Shown here: piece by piece, positions 12,253-27,775 of the stretch
How the letters are laid out: each line of letters begins with the position of its first letter
Numbering within the stretch: the first letter of the stretch is position 1
Origin: Methylomonas sp. 11b
GTDB lineage: Bacteria; Pseudomonadota; Gammaproteobacteria; Methylococcales; Methylomonadaceae
Assembly (NCBI RefSeq): GCF_000515215.1
Contig: NZ_KI911557.1
Coordinates: 5,017,741 to 5,081,740, forward strand
Direction of reading: 5' to 3'
Length of the DNA: 64,000 nucleotides
Program-made: the position numbers and the translations under genes
The notes under the pieces: generated by a model
What the model was told of the DNA's origin: nothing
Database searches by the model: none
The model's input: only the letters and a program-made list of their open reading frames with translations

Positions 12253-13323
12253 ATGAGCATTTTAGTAACCGGTGGGGCCGGGTTTATCGGCAGCAATTTT
12301 GTATTGGATTGGCTGGCGCAAACTGACGAATTGGTCGTCAATCTGGATAAATTGACGTATGCGGGTAATTTACAGAATTTGGCTTCGCTACAAGGCGATA
12401 CCCGCCATGAGTTTGTACAGGGCGATATTGCCGATTACGACTTGGTGCTAAGTTTGTTGGAAAAACATCAAATTCGGGCCGTGGTCAATTTTGCTGCCGA
12501 ATCCCATGTTGATCGCTCAATTCACGGACCGGAAGATTTTATTCAAACCAATATCGTCGGCAGTTTCCGTTTGTTGGAAGCGGTGCGGCAATACTGGAAC
12601 AACTTGGAACATCCGGCCAAGCAGGTTTTCCGTTTACTGCACGTGTCTACCGACGAGGTTTACGGTTCTTTGGAAAAGTCCGATGCGCCGTTTGCCGAAA
12701 CCAATCAGTATCAACCCAATAGTCCTTATTCCGCCAGTAAAGCCGCTAGCGACCATTTGGTGCGTGCTTATCACCACACTTACGGGTTGCCGGTACTGAC
12801 CACTAATTGCTCCAATAATTACGGCCCTTATCATTTCCCGGAAAAACTGATCCCACTGTGCATTCAAAATGCCTTGTCCGGCAAAGCTTTGCCGATTTAT
12901 GGTGACGGTCAACAGATTCGCGATTGGTTGTATGTGAAAGATCATTGCAGTGCGATTCGCCGGGTGCTGGAGTCAGGCACGCTTGGCGAGGTGTATAACG
13001 TCGGCGGCTGGAACGAAAAAGCCAATCTGGATGTGGTCAACACGCTGTGCAGTATTCTTGATGAACTGCAGCCGCGCGCCGATAGCAAATCCTATGCGGA
13101 ACAGATTACCTATGTCACCGACCGGCCGGGGCACGACAGACGTTATGCCATTGATGCCGGCAAGCTGGAGCGAGAGCTGGGTTGGAAACCGGCGGAAACC
13201 TTCGAGACCGGCATACGCAAAACCGTACAATGGTATTTGGATAACCAAGCCTGGGTTGCCAATGTGTTATCCGGCGACTACCAGTCTTGGCTGGACAAAA
13301 ACTATACCGGGCGCAATGCGTGA
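12253..13323 (+). CDS. rfbB: dTDP-glucose 4,6-dehydratase
   Basis: 356 residues. Converts dTDP-glucose to dTDP-4-keto-6-deoxyglucose, the branch point for rhamnose and for 4-amino sugars. NAD-binding GGAGFIG at 7-13, catalytic T133-D134-E135 (STDEVYG) and Y159xxxK163 (YSASK). First gene of the polysaccharide locus and of the rfbBDAC set. It begins 111 bp after the histidine kinase gene; that gap holds no clear promoter. The same product can feed the WecE-like aminotransferase at 34834. Confidence 0.97.
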
Positions 13324-13347
13324 TCAGTGCCTTGCATGGTTGATTGA

Positions 13348-14244
13348 ATGAAAGTTTTACTGTTAGGTAAAAATGGCCAGCTTGGCTGGGAGTTGCAAAG
13401 GAGCTTGGCACCTTTGGGTGAATTGGTTGCGCTTGACCGATTCGATCAGCATTATTGTGGCGATTTAAGTAATCCAAACGGGATTGCCGAAACTGTTCGC
13501 GCACTACGTCCCGATGTCATCGTCAATGCCGCTGCCTACACCGCAGTGGACAAGGCTGAGTCGGAAAGCGAATTGGCGAATACCATCAATGCAGTGGCGC
13601 CGGGTACTTTAGCCGAAGAAGCCAAACGCATCGGTGCTTGGTTGGTGCATTATTCCACCGATTACGTGTTCGACGGCAGCGGGGATAAACCCTGGCGGGA
13701 AGACGATCAAGTGGGTCCGTTGAATGTCTACGGTCAAACCAAACTGGCTGGCGAACGAGCTATTGAAGCCAGCGATTGCCGGCATTTGATTTTTCGGACC
13801 AGTTGGGTCTACGCTGCCAGAGGTAATAATTTTGCCAAGACGATGCTGCGCTTGGCGCAAGAGCGTCAGCAGCTGTCGGTGATTGACGATCAAATCGGTA
13901 CGCCAACCGGAGCCGAGTTACTGGCGGATGTCAGTGCCCATGCCATCCGTCATTCCTTGAAAACACCGGAAGCGGCTGGCGTTTACCATTTAACCGCTAG
14001 TGGCGAAACCAGTTGGTACGACTATGCGCATCTGGTGTTCGACTATGCCCGTCGGGCCGGTATAGAACTGAAAACCGATAAGCAGTCGGTCGCGGCAATT
14101 CCCACCAGCGCTTACCAAACCCCGGCTAAGCGGCCGTTAAACTCACGATTGAATACCGAGAAATTGCAAAACGTGTTTGGTTTACAGCTGCCGGCTTGGC
14201 AGTTGGGAGTCGAGCGTATGTTGTCTGAACTCTACGGAAAATAA
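13348..14244 (+). CDS. rfbD: dTDP-4-dehydrorhamnose reductase
   Basis: 298 residues. Last step of dTDP-L-rhamnose synthesis. Rossmann motif GKNGQLG at 7-13, catalytic Y128GQTK132, and the STDYVFDG block (about 103-110) typical of RmlD. Sits 24 bp after rfbB and 2 bp before rfbA. Confidence 0.96.
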
Positions 14245-14246
14245 AT

Positions 14247-15131
14247 ATGAACCAGCGTAAAGGCATAATCCTGGCCGGAGGCTCCGGTACCCGGCTTTAT
14301 CCGGTGACGAAAGCGGTGTCCAAACAATTGCTGCCGATTTACGATAAGCCCATGATTTATTACCCGCTCAGCACTTTAATGTTGGCCGGGATTCGCGACA
14401 TTCTGATTATTTCCACACCGCAAGATACGCCTTTGTTTCAACATTTGCTGGGTGACGGTAGCGATTGGGGTGTTAATCTACAATATGCCGTGCAAGCCAG
14501 TCCCGACGGATTGGCGCAAGCATTTATCATCGGCAAGGACTTTGTTGGTTCACAACCCAGCGCCCTGGTTTTGGGCGACAACATTTTTTACGGGCACGAT
14601 TTACATGTTCAACTGAAACGCGCGACTGATCAATCCTCAGGTGCGACTGTTTTTGCCTATCATGTCAATGACCCGGAGCGTTACGGAGTCGTCAGTTTTG
14701 ATGCTCAGGGTAGGGCAACTTCGCTAGAGGAAAAACCGACTCAGCCGAAAAGTAATTATGCAGTGACCGGTTTGTATTTTTACGATAATCAAGTCGTCGA
14801 TATCGCCGCCAATTTAAAGCCGTCGTCGCGCGGCGAGCTAGAAATCACCGATGTAAATAGAGTGTATCTGGATAGAGAACAGCTGAGCGTGGAAATTATG
14901 GGCCGTGGTTATGCCTGGTTGGATACCGGCACTCACGCTAGTTTAATAGAGGCAAGTAATTTCATCGAAACCATTGAAACTCGTCAGGGCCTGAAAATCG
15001 CCTGCCCGGAGGAAATCGCCTGGCGTAGTAATTGGATCGGCGACGAGCAAATCGCAAAACTGGCCAAACCGTTGGCGAAAAATGGTTATGGACAATATTT
15101 GCTGAAACTACTGAATAAGCAGGTGTTTTAA
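14247..15131 (+). CDS. rfbA: Glucose-1-phosphate thymidylyltransferase
   Basis: 294 residues, RmlA length. Makes dTDP-glucose from dTTP and glucose-1-phosphate. Nucleotide-binding [11 protein letters not shown] at 11-21, followed by [16 protein letters not shown]. Overlaps the rfbC start by one base (taATG), indicating tight translational coupling. Confidence 0.97.
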
Positions 15132-15670
15132 TGCAGGCAACTAGACTTGCTATACCCGATGTCATTTTATTTACGCCAAAGGTATTTGGTGATGAACGCG
15201 GTTTTTTCTTCGAAAGCTTCAACGAAAGAGTTTTTCAGGAGTTGACAGGTTTAAGCGTCAATTTTGTCCAGGACAACCATTCCAAGTCTCAAAAAGGCGT
15301 GCTGCGCGGCTTACATTACCAATTGCCGCCTAAGGCGCAAGGCAAGTTAGTGAGGGTGGTCCAAGGCGCAGTATTCGATGTGGCGGTGGACATTCGTAAG
15401 GGTTCCCCTACATTTGGAAAGTGGGTCGGCGAGATACTTTCTGCGGAAAATAAACAGCAAATGTGGATACCGGAAGGATTTGCACATGGCTTTCTAACTC
15501 TGTCCGAAACAGCTGAGTTTTTATATAAAACTACTGATTATTATGCGCCCGAATATGAGCGTTGCATTATCTGGAATGATGCAGATTTGAAAATCGCATG
15601 GCCATTCCAGGGCATGCCGCAACTTTCGAGCAAGGATTTGCTGGGCGTAACTTTCAAGGATGCCTGTTAG
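15131..15670 (+). CDS. rfbC: dTDP-4-dehydrorhamnose 3,5-epimerase
   Basis: 179 residues, RmlC length. Double epimerisation of dTDP-4-keto-6-deoxyglucose. The diagnostic RGLHYQ is at 59-64 with catalytic H62; RVVQGAVFDVAVDIRKGSPTFGKW and the IPEGFAHGF blocks are present. Closes rfbBDAC. Confidence 0.96.
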   Translation: MQATRLAIPDVILFTPKVFGDERGFFFESFNERVFQELTGLSVNFVQDNHSKSQKGVLRGLHYQLPPKAQGKLVRVVQGAVFDVAVDIRKGSPTFGKWVGEILSAENKQQMWIPEGFAHGFLTLSETAEFLYKTTDYYAPEYERCIIWNDADLKIAWPFQGMPQLSSKDLLGVTFKDAC

Positions 15671-15765
15671 CCTAACATTTAACATGTTTATTTCCGCCAG
15701 GCTATAACTGCAGCATACAGTTTATCGCTGCCGCTTGGTTTGATTTCAATAAAAGAGGAAGTTAT

Positions 15766-16569
15766 ATGAATAAAAGAGAACGCTCAATGCTCGACCTTTT
15801 AAAGAAAGGAAAGCAGGAGTATGGATATGAAGGCATTAAAGCCGAGTTTGAAGCAGAAGGTACCAGGACAGACGAGTTGTTGAGACTGATCGAGATCGTG
15901 CGCAGAGCCGATCTGAAAGTGGGTTTGAAGATCGGCGGCTGCGAAGCGATGCGCGATTTATTAGAGAGTAAGTTGATTGGTGTGGATCACATTATTGCAC
16001 CTATGATTGAGAGTACCTATGCCTTGTCCAAGTACATTGATGCCAAGAACAAGGTGTTTACCGAAGACGAGCAGCAAGATACTGATTTTTTATTCAATAT
16101 TGAAACCGAACAAGCGTTTCAAGTTGTGCAAAACTTGGCTGATCAAGCCAGACAAGACAACGGCGTCGATGGCATGGTGTTTGGTCGCGTCGATTTTTCT
16201 TTGTCGCGGGGCTATTCGAGAGATGCCATTAACCAACCGCAAGTGACTGAGTGTTGTATTGCCACCGCTAAAGAGTGTAAAGAAAAAGGCTTGGACTTTG
16301 TGGTGGGTGGTGGGGTTTCCATTGATGCGTTGCCGGCATTGAAAGAAATTAATCAGGTTCACCTTACCCGGTTTGAAACTAGAAAAGTCATTTTTTCCGG
16401 GCATTCGCTAGACAAGCCGGATATCGAAAAAGGTTTGTTGAATGCTGTGCACTTTGAATTACTTTGGTTGCAGAATAAACGCGATTATTACGACATTATC
16501 GCCAAGGAAGACTTATCTCGAATAGCCATGCTAGAGGGGCGTTGGAACGTATTAAGAGATAGTAATTAA
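15766..16569 (+). CDS. HpcH/HpaI-type aldolase (citrate-lyase-beta superfamily)
   Basis: 267 residues; strong SD (AGAGGAAG) just before the ATG. The fold is the metal-dependent pyruvate aldolase/citrate-lyase type: candidate metal ligands are E113 (NIETEQ) and D143 (FGRVDFS), with a glycine loop GGGVS at 181-185. Known members cleave or form 4-hydroxy-2-oxo acids from pyruvate and an aldehyde; the substrate here is unknown. It begins a tight run with an SDR, a dehydroquinate-synthase-like cyclase and an epimerase inside the polysaccharide locus. Fold confidence good, reaction a guess. Confidence 0.75.
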
Positions 16570-16582
16570 TGCGGTTGACGTA

Positions 16583-17275
16583 ATGCAAAAAATTTTGGTC
16601 TTCGGCGGTACTGGTACAATAGGTACGCGTATTTGCCAACTATTCGATGCTAAGGGATGGAAGGTAGTTATAGCGTCCAGAAAGCAAAGCACTTTTCCTG
16701 ATCACATTTTATTTGATCCATTCGATGCCAATTTGAATCTATCCGCGCTTAAAGCTGCCGGGCAGTTTAATGCAGTATGTTGGGCGCAAGGAATGAATTG
16801 CAATGACAGTATTTATAATGTCGATATCGATAAAAATATTGAGTTGTATAGAGCCAACTGCTTGTTTATCGTCAAGTCATTAAATATTTTATTAAATGAA
16901 GGCTTATTGGCTGAAAGCGCGCGTTTAGCGGTGATTAGTTCAATATGGCAAAATCTCGCCAGACAGGACAAGTTGTCGTATTGCATGACTAAATCCGCGT
17001 TGCATGGATTAGTGCTTTCGGCGGCAACCGATCTTGCTCGTGACGGCTATTTAATTAACGCTGTTTTGCCTGGCGCATTGGATACACCAATGACACACCA
17101 AAATCTTGCGCCGGAACAGTTAAAAACAATAATTGGCGCTACGAAGTTTAACCGACTGGCTACGTTGGAAGATGTGGCCAATATGGTTTATTTTCTGTGT
17201 TCTCCGGAAAATACCGGTATAACAGGTCAATTTATTAATGCAGACTTAGGGTTTAGTCATGTCCGTGTCGTTTGA
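16583..17275 (+). CDS. Short-chain dehydrogenase/reductase
   Basis: 230 residues. NAD(P)-binding GGTGTIG at 8-14; catalytic S119/S120 (VISSIW), Y133 and K137 (YCMTK); then a PGALDTPM segment typical of SDRs. Substrate unknown. Its 3' end overlaps the next gene by 17 bp, so it is coupled to the cyclase-like gene, which suggests it acts on that enzyme's substrate or product. Confidence 0.85.
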   Translation: MQKILVFGGTGTIGTRICQLFDAKGWKVVIASRKQSTFPDHILFDPFDANLNLSALKAAGQFNAVCWAQGMNCNDSIYNVDIDKNIELYRANCLFIVKSLNILLNEGLLAESARLAVISSIWQNLARQDKLSYCMTKSALHGLVLSAATDLARDGYLINAVLPGALDTPMTHQNLAPEQLKTIIGATKFNRLATLEDVANMVYFLCSPENTGITGQFINADLGFSHVRVV

Positions 17276-18335
17276 TATTCAATCAAGCATTGCAAATTAT
17301 CGCGTGGTAATAGAAAACGGGGCTTTTGCCGAAGTACAACGGCAAAATGAGAATAGCGTCGTGTTATGCGATAACTTTTTTGAAACGGCTTTTTCCGGGA
17401 ATGCCAAGGTTATTGCCGTACCGGCGAATGAAGAAACCAAAAGTTTAAAATCCGTCCCCGAGATAATCATAAAAATGCGAGACTTAGCCTTAACAAGGCA
17501 AGCTAAGTTGACGGCTGTTGGTGGTGGTAGTCTGCAGGATATAGCCACCTTTTGTGCTTCGATTTATATGCGCGGTATCAAATGGGATTATATTCCCACC
17601 ACTCTATTGGGCATGGTGGATTCTTGTATTGGGGGTAAGTCATCTATCAATGTTGGACGTTATAAAAATCTGGTTGGAAACTTTCACCCCCCGGAGACTA
17701 TTATAATTGATCCGAATTTAGTAAAAACCCTCAACGCAGAACAGAAAATCGCCGGATTGTGCGAGGCTGTGAAGATTTGCTATGCCAAAGGCAGTTTATG
17801 TTTCTCTGAGTATATGCAGTTAAATCCGCAAATGGATATGAATGTAGAAGGGTATGCGGATATAATTGAATTAAGTTTAAAAGCAAAAAAATGGTTTATC
17901 GAAATTGATGAATTTGATAAAGCCGAGCGTTTATTGTTGAATTTTGGTCATACCTTCGGGCACGCTTTGGAAGGTGCTTCCAATTTTGAAGTGAGTCATG
18001 GTATAGCGGTTGGATTAGGCATGCTGATTGCCATTAATTATGCCCAAGTGAGCGGTGGCCTGAAGCAAATTCCAGCGGATACTCAACAGTTGAAAGATTA
18101 TGTCGTGGGTTTGTTGGATCAAATTCCAACTCTGAAAGAAATTATCCGGCGCATTGATGTGGAAAAAGTCTTTGAGTGTTTTATATCGGATAAAAAGCAT
18201 TCCGCCAGTCATTTTATTATTATCAGTGTGAATGATTCCGGAGCATTAGAACGATTATTTATCGATAAAACCCAGGCAAATATAGTCAATTTGAAGTCTG
18301 CAATTAGTTCAGTCATTAGTCAGAGCTACAAATAA
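17259..18335 (+). CDS. 3-dehydroquinate-synthase-like sugar phosphate cyclase
   Basis: 358 residues. Clear AroB-family features: GGGSLQD at 88-94, GGKSSIN at 125-131, and the three metal ligands E169 (LCEAVK), H231 (NFGHTFGH) and H247 (SHGIAVGLG). The surroundings (polysaccharide genes, not shikimate genes) argue against housekeeping AroB. The family includes DHQ synthase, 2-deoxy-scyllo-inosose synthase and valiolone/desmethyl-deoxygadusol synthases, all making a carbocycle from a sugar or 3-deoxy-ulosonate phosphate. The exact product cannot be told by eye. Overlaps both neighbours. Confidence 0.8.
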   Translation: MSVSFDIQSSIANYRVVIENGAFAEVQRQNENSVVLCDNFFETAFSGNAKVIAVPANEETKSLKSVPEIIIKMRDLALTRQAKLTAVGGGSLQDIATFCASIYMRGIKWDYIPTTLLGMVDSCIGGKSSINVGRYKNLVGNFHPPETIIIDPNLVKTLNAEQKIAGLCEAVKICYAKGSLCFSEYMQLNPQMDMNVEGYADIIELSLKAKKWFIEIDEFDKAERLLLNFGHTFGHALEGASNFEVSHGIAVGLGMLIAINYAQVSGGLKQIPADTQQLKDYVVGLLDQIPTLKEIIRRIDVEKVFECFISDKKHSASHFIIISVNDSGALERLFIDKTQANIVNLKSAISSVISQSYK

Positions 18336-19336
18336 TGCCTTTTAATTTCGAAAAAGCGTTTGGCGCTGACTATCGATTTATATTAGATTGCCTGTTTAGT
18401 AAGCAGAGTCATATCGCTGTGACCGGCGCTAGTGGCTGGTTAGGTCGTGCAACCTTGGAACTGTTTTCGGCTTTGTACGGCGATGAATTTAACGGTCGAG
18501 TATCGGCATACGGATCTCGTGAGCAGCAGATAATACTCGATGATGGTCGTACAGTATCCGTTAGACCTTTGAAGGAAATCATCCATCGGCATACACAACA
18601 CGATCTCTATTTATTTCACTTTGCGTTTTTAACCAAGGATAAGGTTGGCGGATATACAGACGATGAGTATATTCGTCTGAACAAAGATATTCAAAATTTG
18701 GTTATACAGGTATTGAAGCAATCGCAGGTAAAGGCCGTGCTGTTGTCTTCGTCTGGAGCGGTTTACGATTATTTAAACGATAGCAATAGAGATAAGTCTG
18801 CAAATCTATACGGCAGATTAAAATATGAAGATGAGTTGCTCTTTGAAGAGATATGCAATAAATACGATATAAAACTGCTTATTCCAAGGATATTTAATTT
18901 AAGCGGGCCGTACATTAATAAGCTAAGTGCTTATGCCCTATCCTCGATTGTCACGAATGTCGTCGCCGGGGAAAATGTGGTAATTCGGGCAAATAAGCTC
19001 GTGTTTCGTTCTTACATTTATATTCTGGATTTGTTGCTGCTCTGTATTCGTATGATGTTCTCGGAACGTTTCGAAAAAATCGTCCGTTTCGATACCGTGG
19101 GTGATGAGACGGTGGAAGTTGGCGAGTTAGCTGTAAAGGTTTGCAAGTTACTTGATGTTGCCGATCTAACAATTGAACGTCCGAATATAATAGGTGATGA
19201 AGCTGATAGCTATTTGGGAAACGAGCACCCTATTAAAGATATTATAAATGGATTTGGGTTTCCAGTAACCAGCCAAGATCGGCAGATTCTAGAAACTGCT
19301 GAGTATATTCGTAATTTGAACAAAGATAATGCGTAG
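18335..19336 (+). CDS. NAD-dependent epimerase/dehydratase family protein
   Basis: 333 residues of the extended-SDR type: GASGWLG at 31-37, S139-S140 ([11 protein letters not shown]), Y159GRLK163. Starts on the last base of the cyclase-like gene. It could reduce or epimerise the nucleotide sugar formed downstream (the YerF-type step after the ThDP enzyme) or act with the aldolase/cyclase set. About one third of its length is not close to any subfamily I recognise. Confidence 0.8.
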
Positions 19337-19365: not shown

Positions 19366-20136
19366 TTGATGAAGTTGGTTATTCTTGCGGGTGGATTGGG
19401 CACTCGTATCAATGAAGAAACCTCGGTAAAGCCTAAGCCGATGATAGAAATAGGCGGCAGGCCTATTTTATGGCACATAATGAAGTTATATTCTCATTAT
19501 GGGATTAACGAATTTATAATATGCTTGGGTTATAAGGGCTATATTATAAAAGAATATTTTGCCAACTATTTTCTGCATATGTCGGATGTGACGTTCGATA
19601 TGGAGCATAACGAGATGCAGGTGCATCAAAAATATGCGGAGCCATGGAAAGTGACCTTGGTAGATACCGGTGAATTAACGATGACCGGAGGCCGGTTAAA
19701 AAGAGTCCGTGATTATGTCGGCGATGAAACATTCTGTTTTACTTACGGGGATGGGGTTGGCGATGTCGATATTAATGCGCTGATCAATTTTCATCGTTCC
19801 CACAATAACGCAGCAACAGTGACCGCCGTGCAACCGCCGGGCCGGTTTGGGGCCTTGGAATTGGAGGGTAGCCGCATCAAGAGTTTTCAGGAAAAGCCGC
19901 AGGGTGACGGCGCCTGGATCAACGGCGGTTTTTTTGTATTGTCGCCGGCTGTGTTCGATTTAATCGACAGCGACGAAACGCTATGGGAGAAAGAACCGAT
20001 GGAGCGTCTGGCGAACAGCAATCAGCTGCACGCTTACTTCCATAAAGGCTTCTGGCAACCCATGGATACATTAAGAGATAAACAGCATTTGGAACAGCTT
20101 TGGCAACAGCAAAAAGCACCGTGGAAGATATGGTAG
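19366..20136 (+). CDS. rfbF: Glucose-1-phosphate cytidylyltransferase
   Basis: 256 residues, RfbF/DdhA length. Makes CDP-glucose from CTP and glucose-1-phosphate. Motif GGLGTR at 8-13, followed by [27 protein letters not shown] and [10 protein letters not shown] are typical of this enzyme. First of three consecutive genes for CDP-3,6-dideoxyhexoses. Its stop overlaps the next start (ATGGTAG). Confidence 0.95.
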
Positions 20137-21212
20137 AACATAGCGATTTTTGGCGAGGCAAACGGGTTTTTATAACAGGGCATACCGGATTTAAAGGCGG
20201 TTGGCTAGCGTTATATCTGCATGGGCTCGGTGCAGAGATTAAAGGGTATGCGTTACCGGCGCCAACTGCGCCAAGTTTATTCCAAGTAGCCGATGTCGCT
20301 TCGGTACTGCAGCACGTTGAAGGTGATATTCGCGATTTAACAAGCGTGATGGCGGAAATGCAAAGTTTTCAGCCAGAATTTGTGTTTCATTTGGCCGCGC
20401 AACCGCTTGTTCGGTATTCCTACCAACAGCCGGTGGAAACCTACGCCACCAATGTGATGGGCACCGTTAATTTATTGGAGGCGGTCAGGCACACTGCCTC
20501 GGTAAAGTCAGTAGTGATAGTCACCAGCGACAAATGCTACGAGAACAAGGAATGGTTATGGGGCTACCGCGAAAACGAGCCGATGGGTGGCTTCGATCCC
20601 TACAGCAACAGCAAAGGCTGTTCGGAACTTGTGACTGCCAGCTATCGCAATTCCTTTTTTTCCAGCGAACGCTACGCTGAACATGGTGTGGCGGTGGCAT
20701 CGGTCCGTGCCGGTAATGTGATTGGCGGCGGAGATTGGGCTCAAGATCGCTTAATTCCCGACATCATGAGAGCGTTCATGGCAGGGGAGGCTGTTACGAT
20801 TCGTAACCCTACGGCCATCAGACCGTGGCAGCATGTACTGGACCCGGTGACCGGCTATGTTCTGCTGGCCGAACAACTGTATAAAAAAGGTTGTCGCTAC
20901 GCGGAGGGTTGGAATTTTGGGCCTAGCGAAGCTGATGCGCAACCCGTGTCGTGGATATTGGAAAAACTGGCGGGCTTATGGGGCAATGGCGCTAGCTGGC
21001 AAATCGATGGTAGCGAGCAGCCGCATGAAGCTCACTATTTGAAGCTTGATTGTTCCAAAGCCAAGACCCTTTTGGGTTGGGTGCCACGTTGGACTTTAGC
21101 CCACGCGTTGGCGATGATTGTCGATTGGAACCTGGCCTATCAACAAGGCAAGGATATGCGGCAAGTCTGCGCGGAACAGTTAGAGCAGTTTTTGACAGCC
21201 GATCAACATTAG
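20130..21212 (+). CDS. rfbG: CDP-glucose 4,6-dehydratase
   Basis: 360 residues from the ATG at 20130, which overlaps the rfbF stop and is preceded by GGAAG; a TTG at 20100 would add ten residues but is less likely, as the family is about 357-360 long. Rossmann GHTGFKG at 17-23, catalytic Y158SNSK162. Product is CDP-4-keto-6-deoxyglucose, the substrate of RfbH. Confidence 0.95.
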
Positions 21213-21228
21213 GAGACCTCTAATACTT

Positions 21229-21275
21229 CGTCATTCCCGCGTAAGCGGGGATCCAGCTTGCTGATTTCACTGGGT
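21229..21275 (+). repeat. Dispersed CGTCATTCCCGC-type repeat inside the operon
   Basis: ATTCCCGC (21233-21240) and GCGGGGAT (21245-21252) pair at 7 of 8 positions across a 4-nt loop, followed by a CCAGC...CTG tail. This is a widespread proteobacterial intergenic element type. It lies between rfbG and rfbH and would be translated as a false N-terminal extension of RfbH if the TTG at 21258 were used. Confidence 0.6.
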
Positions 21276-21350
21276 TCCCCCTTTCTTGGGAGCGACGATT
21301 ATGAGTTATTAGAAGTTCCCATTAATTTTATTGAATATATAGATAAGACA

Positions 21351-22664
21351 GTGACAGAAAATACATTAAGAGCACAGATTTTGGATTTGGTTGAACAATA
21401 CGCCGCCGAACGTTATGCCGAGAAAGCTTTTGTTCCGGAACAGTCCGTGGTGCCGCCGTCGGGTAAGATTCTCGGCGCAAAAGAGCTTAGCTATATGGTT
21501 GAAGCATCGCTGGACGGTTGGCTAACCACAGGACGATTCAATGATCAATTTGAAAAGCAATTGGCTGAGTTTATAGGCGTTAGCAGCGCGTTGACGGTCA
21601 ATTCCGGTTCCTCTGCGAATCTGCTGGCTTTTGCTTGTTTGACTTCCGAAAAACTGGGAGACCGGGCCTTGCAAAAAGGCGACGAAGTCATTTCCGTAGC
21701 GGCTGGTTTTCCCACAACAGTGAATCCCATTCTGCTTTATGACCTGGTCCCGGTATTTGTCGATGTGGAAATACCAACCTACAACATCGATCCCAGTAAG
21801 ATCGAGGCGGCCATTACGCCTAAAACCAAGGCAATCATGATCGCCCACACGCTGGGAAATCCGTTTGACTTGGATCAAGTCGTCGAAATTGCAAAAAGAT
21901 ACAATCTTTGGCTGATAGAAGATTGCTGCGATGCCTTAGGCACAACCTACAAGGGCCGCAATGTCGGTACCTTCGGCGATATTGGTACGCTTAGCTTCTA
22001 CCCGGCTCACCACATTACGATGGGCGAGGGCGGTGCAGTATTTACCAGTAGTCGGCGCCTAAAAACTATCATAGAGTCGTTTCGGGATTGGGGGAGAGAT
22101 TGTTACTGCGCTCCCGGTGTGGATAACACCTGTAAAAAGAGATTTGGTTGGCAGTTAGGCGATTTGCCGGCCGGCTACGACCACAAGTACACCTATTCGC
22201 ACTTGGGTTATAACTTAAAAATTACCGATATGCAGGCTGCCTGCGGCTTGGCGCAGTTAGAGCGCGCACCGGAATTGATTCAAATCAGAAAACGTAATTT
22301 TAAATTCTTGAAGCAACGCTTAGCCACCTGCGAGCAATATTTAATTCTGCCGGAAGCGACGCCCGGATCGGATCCATCATGGTTTGGATTTCCCATCACG
22401 CTGAAGGAAGACTCAGGTCACGAGCGCGTGGAATTGTTGAAATATCTGGATAAATACAAAATCGGCTCTCGCTTGCTGTTTGCCGGAAATTTAACCCGTC
22501 AGCCCTATATGAAAGGCAGGCAATACAGAATTTCCGGCTCGCTGGATGTGACCGATAGAATTATGCGGCAAACCTTCTGGATTGGTATTTATCCGGCCTT
22601 AACCACCGAGATGCTGGAATTTGTTGCCGAGAAAATAGAAATCTTTTTTGGTATCCGTCAATAA
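21351..22664 (+). CDS. rfbH: CDP-4-keto-6-deoxyglucose 3-dehydratase (RfbH, E1)
   Basis: 437 residues from the GTG at 21351; an in-frame TTG at 21258 would run through a repeat. With the GTG start the numbering matches Yersinia E1: the PLP-lysine position is a histidine (H220, in [10 protein letters not shown]), and candidate [2Fe-2S] ligands fall at C193, C251, C253 and C261 ([12 protein letters not shown]). The enzyme uses PMP and an iron-sulfur cluster to remove the C-3 hydroxyl, giving CDP-4-keto-3,6-dideoxyglucose after reduction. No dedicated E3 reductase (ddhD) is seen beside it. Confidence 0.95.
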
Positions 22665-22679
22665 GTTGGCAAACAATCA

Positions 22680-24461
22680 ATGCAAAACAAGACCATAAAA
22701 TATAGCGATCTATTGGCCGATTGGTTAAAAGCAAAAGGATATACCCACTGCTTTTACGTGGCGGGTGGCAATATCATGCACATTCTGGCTAGCGTCAATC
22801 GTCATTTCAAATGCGTTAGCGTGGTGCATGAGGTGGCCGCTGGCATTGCCGCGGAGTATTTCAATGAAATAAGCGCCGATGGCAAAGCCTTTGCGTTGGT
22901 AACTGCCGGTCCGGGATTAACCAATATCGTCACCGCCGTAGCGGGTGCTTATTTGGAGAGCCGGGAATTATTGGTGATTGGCGGGCAAGTAAAGACTGCG
23001 GATCTTTGTCGGCAACAAGTCCGTCAGCGCGGCATTCAAGAGATTGATGGTGTCGATATCGTCAAGCCGATTACCTCAAAATCGGTGCTGATGGATCGCT
23101 TGATATCCTGCGAAGAATTTAACCAGATTCTCGACGCTGGGATTACAGGCCGCAAAGGTCCGGTGTTTCTTGAAATTCCTTTGGACATCCAAGGTGCGCC
23201 AGTCGATACGAGTGATCCATTATGCCAATTCCACTCATCTAACAAGCAGGCCATTCCAGCTATTGGTGCAGCCGAAATTCAACGCCTAATCGATGATGTT
23301 CGCTCGGCAAAACGGCCATTCTTGTTAATCGGTGCGGGTGTTGCTAGACAGACCGTGGAGCAGATTTACGATGCTTTGGAACCCATGGGTATTCCATTGG
23401 CAACCACATGGAACGGTGCGGACAGGGTGGCGGCAGATCATCCTTTATATTTTGGTCGCCCAAATACCTGGGGTCAACGCTACAGCAATCTGTTGATGCA
23501 GCAGGCCGATTTGCTTATCGCACTAGGAACCCGTTTAGGCTTGCAACAAACCGGTTTTAACTGGCAGGAATTCGTACCTAACGGCAGGGTAGTACAAGTG
23601 GAATGCGACCCTACCGAGCTTAACAAAGGCCATCCCCGTGTCGATTGCGGTTTGCAAGGCGATGCCAATCAAGTATTAAAAGCATTGGCCGCCGCCAGCC
23701 TTGGCGATCATTCCGAATGGGTGGGCTATTGCCAAAAAGTGAAAGCCCAATTGCCGTTGATCGAGCCGATCAACAACACGGCCGAGAATTATGTATCGCC
23801 GTACGATTTTGTCAGCCGTTTATCTGTGCACTGCCGAGAAACCGATAACGTCATTCCATGCAGTAGCGGCGGCGCCTTTACCGTGATGATGCAAACCTTT
23901 GCCCAACAGCGCGGCCAACACATTGTTACTAACAAGGGCTTGGCATCCATGGGGTACGGGTTGAGCGGCGCGATGGGCGCGGCTTTTGCCTATCCGCAGC
24001 GTAGGACCATTCTAGTAGAAGGCGATGGCGGGTTTGCCCAGAATTTACAAGAGTTGGGTACGGTTGCGGTTAATAAATTAAATCTGAAGATTTTTATTTT
24101 TAACGATAATGGCTACGCATCCATTCGCATGACGCAAAGAAATTATTTTGATGGTGCCTATATTGGTTGCGACCAGTCCTCTGGCTTGGGCTTGCCGGAT
24201 TGGCTAACCTTATTCAAAGCCTTTAATCTGCCTTGTATCAAACTAGATACTAATTTTGAGCAAAACCCTGAGTTCCAAGCTTTATTCGAAAGCGATCAAC
24301 CGGCTGGCTTTATTGTGCCGATAGATCCGGAACAAACCTATCTTCCCAAAATAACCAGTAGGGTAACGGAAACAGGTTCTATGCAATCAAATCCATTACA
24401 TCAAATGACCCCGGATTTGGACGAACATTTGTATTCTGTAGTAGCGCAATATTTGCAATAA
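22680..24461 (+). CDS. Thiamine-diphosphate enzyme, acetolactate-synthase-like (YerE type)
   Basis: 593 residues in the three-domain ThDP/acetolactate-synthase plan. Catalytic glutamate E51 (VVHEVAAG); ThDP/Mg motif begins G448-D449-G450 and closes with N475-D476-N477-G478. Sixteen bp after rfbH. In Yersinia, YerE is a related flavin-containing ThDP enzyme that adds the two-carbon unit of pyruvate to C-4 of CDP-4-keto-3,6-dideoxyglucose, giving a branched sugar; position and family make the same role likely here. A true acetolactate synthase is unlikely in this setting, and no small regulatory subunit is present. Confidence 0.8.
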   Translation: MQNKTIKYSDLLADWLKAKGYTHCFYVAGGNIMHILASVNRHFKCVSVVHEVAAGIAAEYFNEISADGKAFALVTAGPGLTNIVTAVAGAYLESRELLVIGGQVKTADLCRQQVRQRGIQEIDGVDIVKPITSKSVLMDRLISCEEFNQILDAGITGRKGPVFLEIPLDIQGAPVDTSDPLCQFHSSNKQAIPAIGAAEIQRLIDDVRSAKRPFLLIGAGVARQTVEQIYDALEPMGIPLATTWNGADRVAADHPLYFGRPNTWGQRYSNLLMQQADLLIALGTRLGLQQTGFNWQEFVPNGRVVQVECDPTELNKGHPRVDCGLQGDANQVLKALAAASLGDHSEWVGYCQKVKAQLPLIEPINNTAENYVSPYDFVSRLSVHCRETDNVIPCSSGGAFTVMMQTFAQQRGQHIVTNKGLASMGYGLSGAMGAAFAYPQRRTILVEGDGGFAQNLQELGTVAVNKLNLKIFIFNDNGYASIRMTQRNYFDGAYIGCDQSSGLGLPDWLTLFKAFNLPCIKLDTNFEQNPEFQALFESDQPAGFIVPIDPEQTYLPKITSRVTETGSMQSNPLHQMTPDLDEHLYSVVAQYLQ

Positions 24462-24472
24462 ATATCTCCAAC

Positions 24473-25414
24473 ATGAACAAAAAATTAATCTCCATAGTAA
24501 TCCCTGCCTATAACGAGCAGGACAATGTCGATGAATTAGCTAAACAATTAACGGCAGTATTTGTGGAAAATAGCGCTTACGATTTTGAAGCTATTATCGT
24601 AGAGAACGGTTCTCAAGATAATACCTACGATAAGCTCTGCGCGGTACATCAGAAAGATCCGCGTTTTAAAATCGTGCAACTGGCGCGTAATTTTAGAATG
24701 GATGGCGGCATTACCGCCGGGCTTAATTATGCATCAGGCGATGCAGCTGTGATCATGACTGCGGATTTGCAAGACCCACCGCATTTAATAACCCAATTCA
24801 TCAAGAAATGGGAAGAGGGATATGAAAATGTGTACGGTATTGTTACTAAACGTAATGGCACGGGCCTGATTCGTCGTTTTAACTCGCAATTGTTTTATTG
24901 GGTTGCCAATGGCTTGACCAATGGTATGGTCCCCAGAAATGTTAGCGATTTTAGACTGATCGACAAAAAAGTTTACGAAACCATCAATTCCATACATGAA
25001 CGTAACCGCTTCATCCGTGGACTATTCGCCTGGGTTGGTTACAAATCTATTGGCGTCGAACATGAACGTGCGGAACGCTTTGCGGGGGTGTCTGGGGCGC
25101 ATACATTCAAGGTTATCGAACTGGCGTTAAAAGGCATATTGGCTCACTCTTATGTGCCTTTAAAGCTTATTACTATATTGGGAATAACCATATCCGCGGC
25201 TTCCTTTGTCCTGTTAGTATGGACAATAGTAAAAGCAATATTCTGGGGTGTGCCGTTTGCTGGGTATGGAACCATTATGACAGTTATGTTTTTGATGTTC
25301 GGAATATTATTTACTATGTTGGGTATTGTTGCAGAATATATTGGTTTGATATACGAGGAAGTGAAGAATCGCCCTAATTTTATCGTGAGAAAGGAAGTTG
25401 GGTTCAATAACTAA
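24473..25414 (+). CDS. GtrB/DPM1-like glycosyltransferase with C-terminal membrane anchor
   Basis: 313 residues. GT2 domain (about 5-225): SIVIPAYNEQDN, ENGSQDNT, and the DxD-like block TADLQDPP; then two membrane spans (about 232-258 and 268-295). This architecture loads a sugar onto undecaprenyl phosphate on the cytoplasmic face. The next gene is a GtrA-type protein and then a GT-C-like protein follows, the classic three-part Gtr branch-glycosylation set. Donor sugar unknown. Confidence 0.9.
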   Translation: MNKKLISIVIPAYNEQDNVDELAKQLTAVFVENSAYDFEAIIVENGSQDNTYDKLCAVHQKDPRFKIVQLARNFRMDGGITAGLNYASGDAAVIMTADLQDPPHLITQFIKKWEEGYENVYGIVTKRNGTGLIRRFNSQLFYWVANGLTNGMVPRNVSDFRLIDKKVYETINSIHERNRFIRGLFAWVGYKSIGVEHERAERFAGVSGAHTFKVIELALKGILAHSYVPLKLITILGITISAASFVLLVWTIVKAIFWGVPFAGYGTIMTVMFLMFGILFTMLGIVAEYIGLIYEEVKNRPNFIVRKEVGFNN

Positions 25415-25823
25415 ACGTTTTTGGGGTAACGAAAAAATTCGTTATCTATTTGTAGGTTTGTATAATACCGCTTTTGGGTATGGTTTTTTTGCAGTTATTT
25501 GGTTTTTCCTACACCATGATTTACATTATGTGGGGCTTTTAATCATAAGTCATTTTGTATCGGTGATTAATGCATATTTGGGTTATAGGATTTATGTGTT
25601 TCGCGTGAAAGGACGGTGGTTGAAAGAATTTTTTAGGTTTAACATGGTTTACCTTGGTGCTTTTGGTTTTAATTTAATAGCATTACCTCTTTTGGTCGAG
25701 AGACTTAATCTACATACATTGATTGCCCAGGCAATTATTGTATCTATTACTGTGATAAGCAGTTATATCTTGCATCGCCGATTTTCTTTTAAAAAGAATA
25801 GTGCGCAAAGTAAGTTATCTTAA
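25398..25823 (+). CDS. GtrA-family membrane protein
   Basis: 141 residues with four membrane spans and the GtrA core (YLFVGLYNTAFGYG, VINAYLGYRIYVF, YILHRRFSFK). Proposed flippase for undecaprenyl-phosphate sugars made by GtrB. An in-frame TGA lies just upstream (25386-25388), so the TTG at 25398 is the only reasonable start; it overlaps the GtrB-like gene by 17 bp. Confidence 0.88.
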   Translation: MGSITKRFWGNEKIRYLFVGLYNTAFGYGFFAVIWFFLHHDLHYVGLLIISHFVSVINAYLGYRIYVFRVKGRWLKEFFRFNMVYLGAFGFNLIALPLLVERLNLHTLIAQAIIVSITVISSYILHRRFSFKKNSAQSKLS

Positions 25824-25853
25824 ATTTACTATCTAGTATGGATGGCATATTGA

Positions 25854-27125
25854 ATGACTTCAGCTGATAGTGTGTGTGTAAAAAATAAAGATATTCATTG
25901 GTGGTTCGTATGGATAATCTTTTCAGAGCTAATTTTTCTGATCTTTTTTGTCAAGTATTTTGAATCCAGCGGTTCTGCAATACCACCATTTTTCTTTGCG
26001 CCTTTAGATACATTTATGGACTTCTATAATACAAATTATTGGAGTCTGAATGATGGGCGTTATGATATATGGCAATCAATTTATCCGATAAGTGTATTTG
26101 CATTGGCGCAAATGTTAGTGCCGGATTATTGTGCTTCCGTTGTTTTACCTGCAGAGTTACGAGATTGCGCGCCACATTCTATCGCTTGGCTATTTTTATT
26201 TTATTTTTGTGCAATTTTTTTATGTACAAAATTAATCGTAAAGCGGGTGAGGATAAAATATATTTCGGTTGAGATAATTATATTTCTCGCGTTGCTGATG
26301 CAATTCCCCGGGCTTTATGCGTTAGAAAGAGGGAACTATATTATAGTTGCTTTTATGTTGTTGGCTTTTTCTCAGGCTTTTGGCGTCAATTGGAAAGACG
26401 CGGTATTTCTTGCGTTGGCTATAAATATTAAGCAGTATTTAATAGTGCTATGGTTTGTGCCGTTTTTTAAAAGGGAATATACATACTTTTTGATGAGTCT
26501 TTTTGCATCATTATTGATTAATCAAATAAGTATGCTTGTGTTGGAAGATGGAAACTATAGGCAAATTTTCGAAAATATGTTTTCTTTTTCTGGCGCTGTT
26601 AATTCGGATTTTTTTCAGAAAGTTTGGTATACAACTTCGCTTAGTTCCTGGTCGAAAGCTGTCTTTTACTATCAGGACCGGATTCCGGGAATCCTCTATT
26701 TGGCTGCGCACTTTTTAAGGTGGTTCGTTCTTTTTGTTGCGGCGTATATTTTATTTTTATCAGCGCGAAAAGCTCACTTTTTCACTTGGGAGCAATTAAG
26801 CGTAGTTGTTTTGCTTTGTATGATGGTGGCTACTGATTCTCCAGGGGGGTATGCAGTTATTTTGTTACTGCCATATTTAAGTGCAATTTTAATTGGAAGA
26901 TATGCTAATAAATATAGAAGGATAATCATGTTTGTGCTGTTGATTCCTCTAGATTTTGTGGTTGGTCCGATAATTGAGTTCAATCAATTTAGTTTTCTTT
27001 CTCAGCATTACGTGGATGTATCAACCGGGTTGACATTTGGTGCATATATTCGTCCATTTTGTCTGCTTTTCATGTTGATAATCATGAGTTACCCGGTTTT
27101 AATATCTTTAAGGAAATTTTCATGA
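25854..27125 (+). CDS. Multi-span GT-C-like glycosyltransferase (GT87/DUF2029-like)
   Basis: 423 residues with about ten membrane spans. The block LERGNYIIVAFMLLA (about 157-171) and NIKQYLIVLW resemble the ERGN...K-Y pattern of GT87-type polyprenyl-phosphate-sugar transferases. Third member after GtrB/GtrA-like genes, so it probably moves the lipid-linked sugar onto the polymer in the periplasm. Could instead be a Wzy-like polymerase. Strongly AT-rich. Confidence 0.6.
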   Translation: MTSADSVCVKNKDIHWWFVWIIFSELIFLIFFVKYFESSGSAIPPFFFAPLDTFMDFYNTNYWSLNDGRYDIWQSIYPISVFALAQMLVPDYCASVVLPAELRDCAPHSIAWLFLFYFCAIFLCTKLIVKRVRIKYISVEIIIFLALLMQFPGLYALERGNYIIVAFMLLAFSQAFGVNWKDAVFLALAINIKQYLIVLWFVPFFKREYTYFLMSLFASLLINQISMLVLEDGNYRQIFENMFSFSGAVNSDFFQKVWYTTSLSSWSKAVFYYQDRIPGILYLAAHFLRWFVLFVAAYILFLSARKAHFFTWEQLSVVVLLCMMVATDSPGGYAVILLLPYLSAILIGRYANKYRRIIMFVLLIPLDFVVGPIIEFNQFSFLSQHYVDVSTGLTFGAYIRPFCLLFMLIIMSYPVLISLRKFS

Positions 27126-27775
27126 CATTTAAAAGCCTAGTTGATGCGCTGATAAAAAATAAGAAATATATAGGTTTAAATCTCCTGTTCTGGGTTTTAA
27201 TGGCCTTTATTTTGCTGGAAGTAATGCCTGTTAAATATGAGGCACAAATTATAATTAAGTTAGGTCAATTTGATAACAATACGCCCATTGCTGGTGCGGC
27301 GGAGTCCATCGAATATTTACGTAACTCAGAAACCTTAATTACGGTGGCGACTGCTAATAACGTATCTCCTAATAAGCTCTCAAAAAGAATTAGGACGCAT
27401 CCTATCGATAATAATAAAGCAATAAAGATACTAGTCCATTGGGATTCTGTTGACGATGCTGAGCGCTTAGTTTCCGCTTTAGCTCAGAAAATTGTCGATC
27501 ATCATCAGCAAAAATTGAACAAAGAACTCAATAGTGTCAAAAATGAAATACTTTATTGGGAGAAAATTTTAGATAAGAAGGAATGCAATAGTCAGGCAGT
27601 TGAATCAATTTCCCAGCTAAAATTGATTATTTTGAGTATGAAGCCAACAGAAATCGTGGCTCCCGCATCAAAGTCATTTGATATTGTATCTATCGATTAT
27701 GGGACAGTTTATTTAGTAGCGCTATTCATGTGGATGTTTTCAAGCTTGCTAATCATTGAGTATTATAGGTCGTGA
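27122..27775 (+). CDS. Short Wzz-like chain-length-determinant protein
   Basis: 217 residues from the ATG at 27122, which overlaps the previous stop (ATGA). Plan: N-terminal membrane span (about 16-36), beta-rich segment with KYEAQIIIKLGQ after it, a helical part around 125-170, and a second span at about 195-213. This is the Wzz topology, but clearly shorter than usual Wzz (about 320-380 residues), with most of the periplasmic coiled coil missing. Probably sets O-chain length or assists the adjacent membrane enzymes. Confidence 0.65.
   Translation: MTFKSLVDALIKNKKYIGLNLLFWVLMAFILLEVMPVKYEAQIIIKLGQFDNNTPIAGAAESIEYLRNSETLITVATANNVSPNKLSKRIRTHPIDNNKAIKILVHWDSVDDAERLVSALAQKIVDHHQQKLNKELNSVKNEILYWEKILDKKECNSQAVESISQLKLIILSMKPTEIVAPASKSFDIVSIDYGTVYLVALFMWMFSSLLIIEYYRS

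Follow-up and report, generated by a model that had tools for sequence, protein, structure and literature searches.

What do four tightly packed genes make when they set a pyruvate-type aldolase beside a relative of dehydroquinate synthase (DHQS) in a surface polysaccharide locus? The genes lie in a 64,000-nucleotide stretch of Methylomonas sp. 11b (contig NZ_KI911557.1, positions 5,017,741 to 5,081,740; hereafter the window), whose genome is 5.41 Mb in one contig. All four are on the plus strand and encode an HpcH/HpaI-like aldolase (ALD, 15766–16569), a short-chain dehydrogenase/reductase (SDR, 16583–17275), a DHQS-like cyclase (CYC, 17259–18335) and an extended SDR of the NAD-epimerase/reductase type (EPI, 18335–19336). 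A 13-base gap separates the first two, the second runs 17 bases into the third, and the third and fourth have one base in common. An original prediction, made from the letters alone, described these four open reading frames (ORFs) as contiguous, with three of them overlapping or nearly so, and took them for a module that makes a cyclitol-type product. We confirm the observation and find part of the interpretation supported: the genes are real, non-housekeeping and recurrent, but they do not stand alone, being wired to genes for a cytidine diphosphate (CDP)-3,6-dideoxy-4-ketohexose and to a YerE-like thiamine diphosphate (ThDP)-dependent carboligase (TPP). We propose, with close to an even chance of being right, that eight genes (these four with rfbF, rfbG, rfbH and TPP) form one pathway to a CDP-activated C4-branched 3,6-dideoxyhexose of the yersiniose, erwiniose or caryophyllose kind that carries a carbocycle in its branch. 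The model draws on gene identities, protein fold, active-site residues, clade membership and co-occurrence, and its reactions are predictions.

The cyclase and its probable substrate

CYC (358 amino acids) matches the DHQ_synthase (PF01761, 120.8 bits) and DHQS_C (PF24621, 83 bits) domains, and its closest solved structures are dehydroquinate (DHQ) synthases. The original prediction had set it apart from housekeeping AroB, and an ordinary aroB is rejected on score, tree and the presence of a second gene: CYC reaches 243.3 bits against the AroB equivalog model TIGR01357 (cut-off 305), whereas the housekeeping aroB elsewhere in the genome reaches 389.9 bits. The best named model is TIGR04425, at 272.7 bits; membership of that family is ruled out by its cut-off of 400, a score that is reached in 4 of 398 genomes of the phylum, the window genome not among them.

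In a maximum-likelihood tree of 57 rows, CYC falls in a clade of its own (24 rows, support 100/100), composed of 15 of the 120 homologues retained (the best 120 of 7,523 matches) and nine sequences from the window and the loci described below. AroB (23 rows, 99/93) and the sedoheptulose-7-phosphate cyclases (3 rows, 100/99) lie on the opposite side. The nearest branches are the TIGR04425 proteins and the cyclase of genome G459 (locus L075; G and L numbers are our handles for genomes and loci, several of the genomes being drafts), joined through a weak fork (92/45).

All 13 catalytic positions of DHQS (which we take to follow the A. nidulans numbering) are kept by CYC, each in 120 of the best 120 homologues; one of 14 cyclases from the loci has His at K197. 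At the five positions that discriminate between substrates, CYC has K250, R264, N268, H275 and K356, as do AroB (23 of 23) and an aminoDHQ-synthase-like protein, a reference that was named from its AHBA-type neighbours and left out of the tree, and which has R at K197 and agrees with CYC and AroB at the other 12 of the 13 positions. By contrast, three annotated sedoheptulose-phosphate cyclases (EEVS/DDGS type) have M, K/S/A, D, P and V/W at these five positions, and a 2-deoxy-scyllo-inosose synthase (DOIS)-like protein (nearest Protein Data Bank entry 2d2x, 266 bits) has K, G, E, H and N. Residues thus rule out both identities, by comparison with three reference sequences in the first case and, through G, E and N at 264, 268 and 356, with one DOIS-like reference in the second.

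K250 and R264 presumably bind the substrate carboxylate. Because the 13 positions are kept, including those altered in cyclases of non-carboxylate substrates, the substrate of CYC is probably a carboxylated 2-ulosonate phosphate, which agrees with the 3-deoxy-ulosonate-like compound first guessed for it. The residue pattern is a strong hint and no proof, because the TIGR04425 proteins carry the same five residues, yet their neighbours give no pointer to an aldolase product. A further 20 positions separate CYC (at least 90% one residue) from AroB (at least 80% another), and all four TIGR04425 rows share 8 of the 20. Among others, Q93, W109, Y111, M119 and C123 are fixed in 120 of the best 120 CYC homologues, and AroB has one other residue at each in at least 22 of 23 sequences.

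A larger gene set and its recurrence

ALD (267 amino acids) scores 24.3 bits against HpcH_HpaI (PF03328), 0.7 below the gathering score of 25, which a relative in L085 passes at 29.2 bits. Its fold, checked independently of Pfam, is a pyruvate-superfamily TIM barrel, as expected of the pyruvate-type aldolase originally claimed. Pyruvate kinases and HpaI tie in Z in a structure search, so that the search fixes the superfamily and not the function. ALD shares the barrel with HpcH/HpaI class II pyruvate aldolases, and the Glu of its NxET and the Asp of its GRxD motif align with residues that we take to be the metal ligands of those enzymes; its identity to them is only about 14%, and it has an invariant Lys55 (KIGG motif) seemingly near the place of HpaI Arg70, a correspondence read from motifs.

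The SDR (230 amino acids; adh_short_C2, PF13561, 85.5 bits) appears to be the partner of the cyclase, and adjoins it also in L072, in L075 and in the TIGR04425-type loci L080–L083. Immediately downstream of EPI come rfbF (19366–20136, plus strand; glucose-1-phosphate cytidylyltransferase, TIGR02623, 480.9 bits, cut-off 300), rfbG (20100–21212, plus; CDP-glucose 4,6-dehydratase, TIGR02622, 503.1 bits, cut-off 278) and rfbH (21258–22664, plus; CDP-4-keto-6-deoxyglucose 3-dehydrase type, NF011936, 748.3 bits, cut-off 423), all above their curated cut-offs and beside a ThDP gene, as in yersiniose- and erwiniose-type loci. The product of that gene, TPP (22680–24461, plus; 593 amino acids), has three TPP_enzyme domains, and its nearest solved relatives are YerE-like: 8rph (279 bits), which we take to be JanthE, and then 5ahk (210 bits), presumably PpYerE.

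At E 0.001 the genus sample gave ALD matches in 8 genomes out of 37 (six at 98–100% identity, two at 59–64%). Samples of higher rank yielded 8 among 398 genomes (phylum), 8 among 201 (order), 7 among 369 (class) and 5 among 289 (a second class). The samples overlap, four include the window's own genome, and some matches are only 27–33% identical. We read neighbourhoods of up to 20 kb around 16 ALD loci, four TIGR04425-type cyclase loci and L007. In ten loci rfbF, rfbG, ALD, SDR, CYC, TPP and an extended SDR occur together: the window, L007 (Thermomonas), L064, L065, L066, L067, L068, L069/L088, L070/L087 and the more diverged L072. Besides the window and Thermomonas, the genomes are G316, G355, G899, G406, G425, G490, G163 and the more diverged G679. 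Gene order varies (L007 runs rfbF-rfbG-rfbH-SDR-CYC-TPP-ALD-EPI), and outside the near-identical Methylomonas group identity is 59–69% for ALD, 44–52% for CYC and 38–41% for EPI, where present. The four genes are therefore not a chance neighbourhood; as had been anticipated, the set recurs elsewhere, as a unit reshuffled in other proteobacteria. rfbF, rfbG, rfbH and the ThDP gene belong to it, and it is larger than 15766–19336.

Of the 17 ALD-bearing genomes picked for this test, 14 (all but G971, G1176 and G459) have a YerE-like TPP above 300 bits, against 13 of 200 phylum genomes, the 200 taking in the window's own genome and five of the 17. All seven genomes of the 17 that have CYC at 45% identity or more carry it on the same contig. 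RfbH is over its cut-off in 10 of the 17, with G679 below it. ALD relatives also stand with TPP and no cyclase in the stretch read in L076, L077, L078/L089, L085 and L093.

EPI (333 amino acids; Epimerase, PF01370, 61.7 bits) tracks the ThDP enzyme instead of the cyclase module in which it had been placed. In the ten loci with CYC and a ThDP gene, the extended SDR is of EPI type in five, where the ThDP enzyme is 59–65% identical to that of the window or is the window's own, and an RmlB-like protein (c1) in the other five, where it is 33–35% identical; L093 has an EPI-like gene with ALD and TPP, and no CYC. EPI is accordingly a candidate reductase for the ketone product of the ThDP enzyme. A strict rule tying EPI to one ThDP clade holds in those ten loci and is broken by L085 (window-type ThDP enzyme at 55%, c1-like protein at 29%). 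The c1-type counterpart of the window ThDP enzyme in L067 likewise has 8rph as nearest solved structure, at 419 bits.

Other loci suggest where the donor of such an enzyme may come from. With pyruvate as donor, YerE attaches an acetyl unit to CDP-3,6-dideoxy-4-ketoglucose; ErwE, of the erwiniose route, rejects pyruvate and prefers longer functionalised acids (for example 4-hydroxy-2-oxobutanoate, -pentanoate or -hexanoate), a preference measured in vitro with an analogue of the CDP-ketosugar; and MMAR_2332 (caryophyllose) has a similar donor preference (PMC12247030). We compared 15 other YerE-like loci, 14 from the phylum sample (E 1e-60; three weak, at 207–217 bits) and L086. A NeuB-family synthase adjoins the ThDP gene in six (L086, L104, L108, L111, L112 and L113), being fused to a cupin in L086 (9730–13210, minus strand); these loci point to ulosonic acids as the ThDP donors in the making of very long branched sugars. 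DmpG and DmpF (4-hydroxy-2-oxovalerate aldolase and acetylating acetaldehyde dehydrogenase) lie near the ThDP gene in one, L114 (10913–13916, minus strand), which has rfbF, rfbG and rfbH and looks like an erwiniose-type cluster. A protein of 541–548 amino acids with no assigned family adjoins the ThDP gene in three (L106, L109 and L110), in the place that a 2-oxo-acid maker takes in other loci; the one copy tried (L106, 7125–8747, minus strand) has no Pfam match. Our inference is that a 2-oxo acid donor can be made interchangeably by ALD, NeuB or DmpG.

A proposed pathway and its rivals

From their curated family matches, RfbF, RfbG and RfbH (the last presumably in a 3-dehydrase role) would supply CDP-3,6-dideoxy-4-ketohexose. 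ALD would join pyruvate to a sugar-derived carbonyl compound to give a 4-hydroxy-2-oxo acid; TPP, on the precedent of ErwE, would decarboxylate such an acid and add the acyl unit to C4 of the CDP-ketosugar; and EPI would reduce the new ketone. Residues and neighbours suggest that CYC would turn a 3-deoxy-2-ulosonate phosphate into a carbocycle with loss of phosphate, and that SDR would reduce the ring ketone. The cyclase would then act inside a nucleotide-sugar pathway and, with ALD and TPP, yield a CDP-deoxyhexose with a polyhydroxylated carbocycle carbon–carbon bonded at C4, a surface-sugar class not yet described; this more specific outcome is possible, and we hold it with distinct reserve.

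When would the ring be closed? Within the pathway model, closure on the free acid before coupling seems a little better than a coin toss and closure after coupling a little worse than one, and we give ring first a slight preference. Because the 2-oxo group is consumed in DHQS-type closure, the same molecule cannot then be the ThDP donor; ring last satisfies this constraint and neither the carboxylate pocket nor the reductase pairing. The pocket of CYC points to a free-carboxylate substrate, which would fit the direct ALD product or 3-deoxy-arabino-heptulosonate 7-phosphate (DAHP). Most of the cyclase-less loci that were read also pair the ThDP enzyme with an extended SDR, suggesting reduction of the acyl ketone and not its use in ring closure. 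Ring first would satisfy both the pocket and ketone reduction by EPI or c1.

Several points weigh against the eight-gene pathway. If the ring comes first, ALD must work after CYC, and the carbonyl that it would use has no named candidate; ring last is at odds with the conserved carboxylate-pocket residues, its substrate being a CDP-sugar, and leaves the reductase that partners the ThDP enzyme (EPI or c1) with no ketone. In G459 (L075, 1415–5498, plus strand) the order SDR-CYC-ALD is followed by a CMP-ulosonate-type cytidylyltransferase resembling PseF/KdsB (57–59 bits, under the cut-offs) and then a short polyprenyl sugar-phosphate transferase, in a genome with no YerE-like TPP; its product is perhaps a CMP-activated carbocyclic ulosonic acid. 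This arrangement fits ALD acting last, because PseF/KdsB-like cytidylyltransferases activate 2-oxo acids, an argument weakened by such a gene in TIGR04425-type loci that have no ALD of this family. G490 and G163 have no RfbH over cut-off, and the ALD match of G010 (32%) does not share a contig with its TPP gene. A 2-oxo-acid maker was recognised in none of 8 of the 15 other YerE-like loci, including L105, L107, L115, L116 and L117, where part of the ORFs were tested.

The aldolase family is also broader than the proposed pathway. The 28.8 kb read in Novosphingobium humi hold rfbF-rfbG-ALD (ALD 55%) but neither TPP nor CYC, and a search confined to the plasmid records gave no TPP match at E 1e-60; an Ilyobacter relative (34%) lies among catabolic genes; and G971 and G1176 have ALD (46–47%) and no TPP match at E 0.001, the G971 gene (L073) standing beside lpxK and a Kdo-transferase-like gene. 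A clean division between ALD clades with and without the cyclase was rejected, the ALD tree requiring four changes, with 11 of 16 inner forks open.

These observations bear on the alternatives. The genes might serve two products of the same surface polymer, one a free quinate-like cyclitol acid from ALD, CYC and SDR, the other ordinary yersiniose from the rfb genes, TPP (using pyruvate) and EPI. The complete carboxylate-type pocket of CYC would suit this, as would G459, with SDR-CYC-ALD and no YerE-like TPP, and the pairing of TIGR04425-type cyclases with an SDR and no such ALD in L080–L083; but the co-occurrence of CYC and TPP on one contig in seven of seven genomes, the pairing of ALD with TPP where no CYC was found (L076–L078, L085 and L093) and the lack of a recognised ligase or acyltransferase in the recurrent set to join both parts make it unlikely. 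A free cyclitol is not the likeliest end product, because of the CDP-sugar and ThDP linkage, the association of EPI with the ThDP enzyme, and the ALD relatives that stand with that enzyme and no cyclase in the stretch read.

A C4-branched sugar with an acyclic branch is more improbable still. ALD would here give TPP a 4-hydroxy-2-oxo acid phosphate, and CYC would carry out phosphate elimination or another redox step that leaves no lasting ring. Phosphate removal could be a common need, since ALD is accompanied by the HAD-IIA phosphatase-like gene c5 in the cyclase-less loci L076–L078 (its family being checked in L076 only), but the substrate- and zinc-holding positions of true cyclases are kept throughout the best 120 CYC homologues, and we know of no DHQS-family member that halts before cyclisation. 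Least credible is that the locus has captured a second ordinary dehydroquinate synthase: the intact catalytic residues and the DHQ synthases among the closest structures would be explained, but not a score of 243 bits under a cut-off of 305, a clade (100/100) outside AroB (99/93), five fixed residues that differ from AroB, or the housekeeping aroB already in the genome.

Related systems and the wider locus

The eight-gene pathway, if correct, is a variant of the yersiniose and erwiniose kind with an aldolase and a cyclase added. Like the clusters of erwiniose (ErwE, Pectobacterium) and yersiniose (YerE, Yersinia), it sets CDP-3,6-dideoxy-4-ketohexose genes beside a YerE-like carboligase, with a source of 2-oxo acid and a C4-branched surface-polysaccharide sugar as product; unlike them, it adds an HpcH/HpaI-like aldolase, a DHQS-type cyclase and an SDR. 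The branches of yersiniose and erwiniose are acyclic. With AroB and aminoDHQ synthase CYC shares its fold family and the 13 catalytic positions (K197 being R in the aminoDHQ-synthase-like protein), and differs from AroB in clade, equivalog score and neighbours.

TIGR04425 (AroB-related putative sugar phosphate phospholyase, cyclizing) resembles the present system as the nearest named model, in its place beyond the weak fork and in the SDR beside the cyclase; it differs in that CYC is well under the cut-off. In the stretches read, L080–L083 show neither an ALD of this family nor a TPP match. In L080 (4046–13407, plus strand) the cyclase is surrounded by an SDR, a 2-hydroxyacid dehydrogenase, a CTP_transf_3 cytidylyltransferase, a GmhA-like SIS protein and two MocA oxidoreductases. 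L082 and L083 contain relatives of the SIS protein and of a MocA oxidoreductase; L082, too, has a CTP_transf_3 cytidylyltransferase, and L081 has rfbF and rfbG nearby.

For branched and carbocyclic surface sugars, knowledge of the biosynthetic routes can lag behind that of the structures. We did not adopt a simple identity with the route to bradyrhizose or caryose, because the rings of both carry oxygen where a pyruvate-derived CH2 would be expected. No description of an aldolase, cyclase and ThDP enzyme in combination was found in the open-licence literature of PubMed Central (PMC), although Krug et al. 2024 and the ErwE paper of Steitz et al. 2022 may mention such clusters; in passages of PMC12013268 the terms occur as separate housekeeping genes. 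The synthesis genes of bradyrhizose were given as unknown in 2016, with an eleven-gene cluster only proposed (PMC4743980). If the model is true, a modular rule follows, in which a CDP-ketosugar and a ThDP enzyme are combined with an exchangeable 2-oxo-acid maker (HpcH-, NeuB- or DmpG-type) and optional ring closure; new sugars would become predictable from genomes, and the cyclase, aldolase and carboligase could be tested as tools for carbocyclic compounds.

In the window the four genes lie between rmlB, rmlD, rmlA and rmlC (12253–15670, named by reading alone) and the CDP-sugar block, which continues from TPP into two candidate members, a GT2 glycosyltransferase (24473–25414, plus; PF00535, 90.4 bits) and a GtrA-like membrane protein (25398–25823, plus; PF04138, 65.3 bits). 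Similar GT2 genes occur in L007, L064, L068 and L072, and GtrA-like genes near the set in L064, L068 and L072, sometimes beside it. Farther downstream are glycosyltransferases, a WbqC-like protein, a PhyH-type oxygenase, methyltransferases and a DegT aminotransferase, and on this account the locus is a surface polysaccharide locus. G+C content is 41% in the four genes, against 48% in rfbFGH-TPP and 49% in the rml genes, a contrast from which the block may have been acquired in pieces. In L064 (G316) a 780-amino-acid ORF (13620–15962, plus strand) that matches Pfam Toxin_15 and weakly resembles ankyrin lies between EPI and the ThDP gene.

The loci closest to that of the window cyclase are those of Methylomonas LW13, WSC-7 and M. 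fluvii. In L003–L005 (L003 being that of LW13) the eight-gene block is 86–100% identical to that of the window. L004 (18034–21074, compared with window 25398–27775) diverges at the GtrA-like protein (38%) and continues with unmatched ORFs, and L003 and L005 match the window for two more genes past that point.

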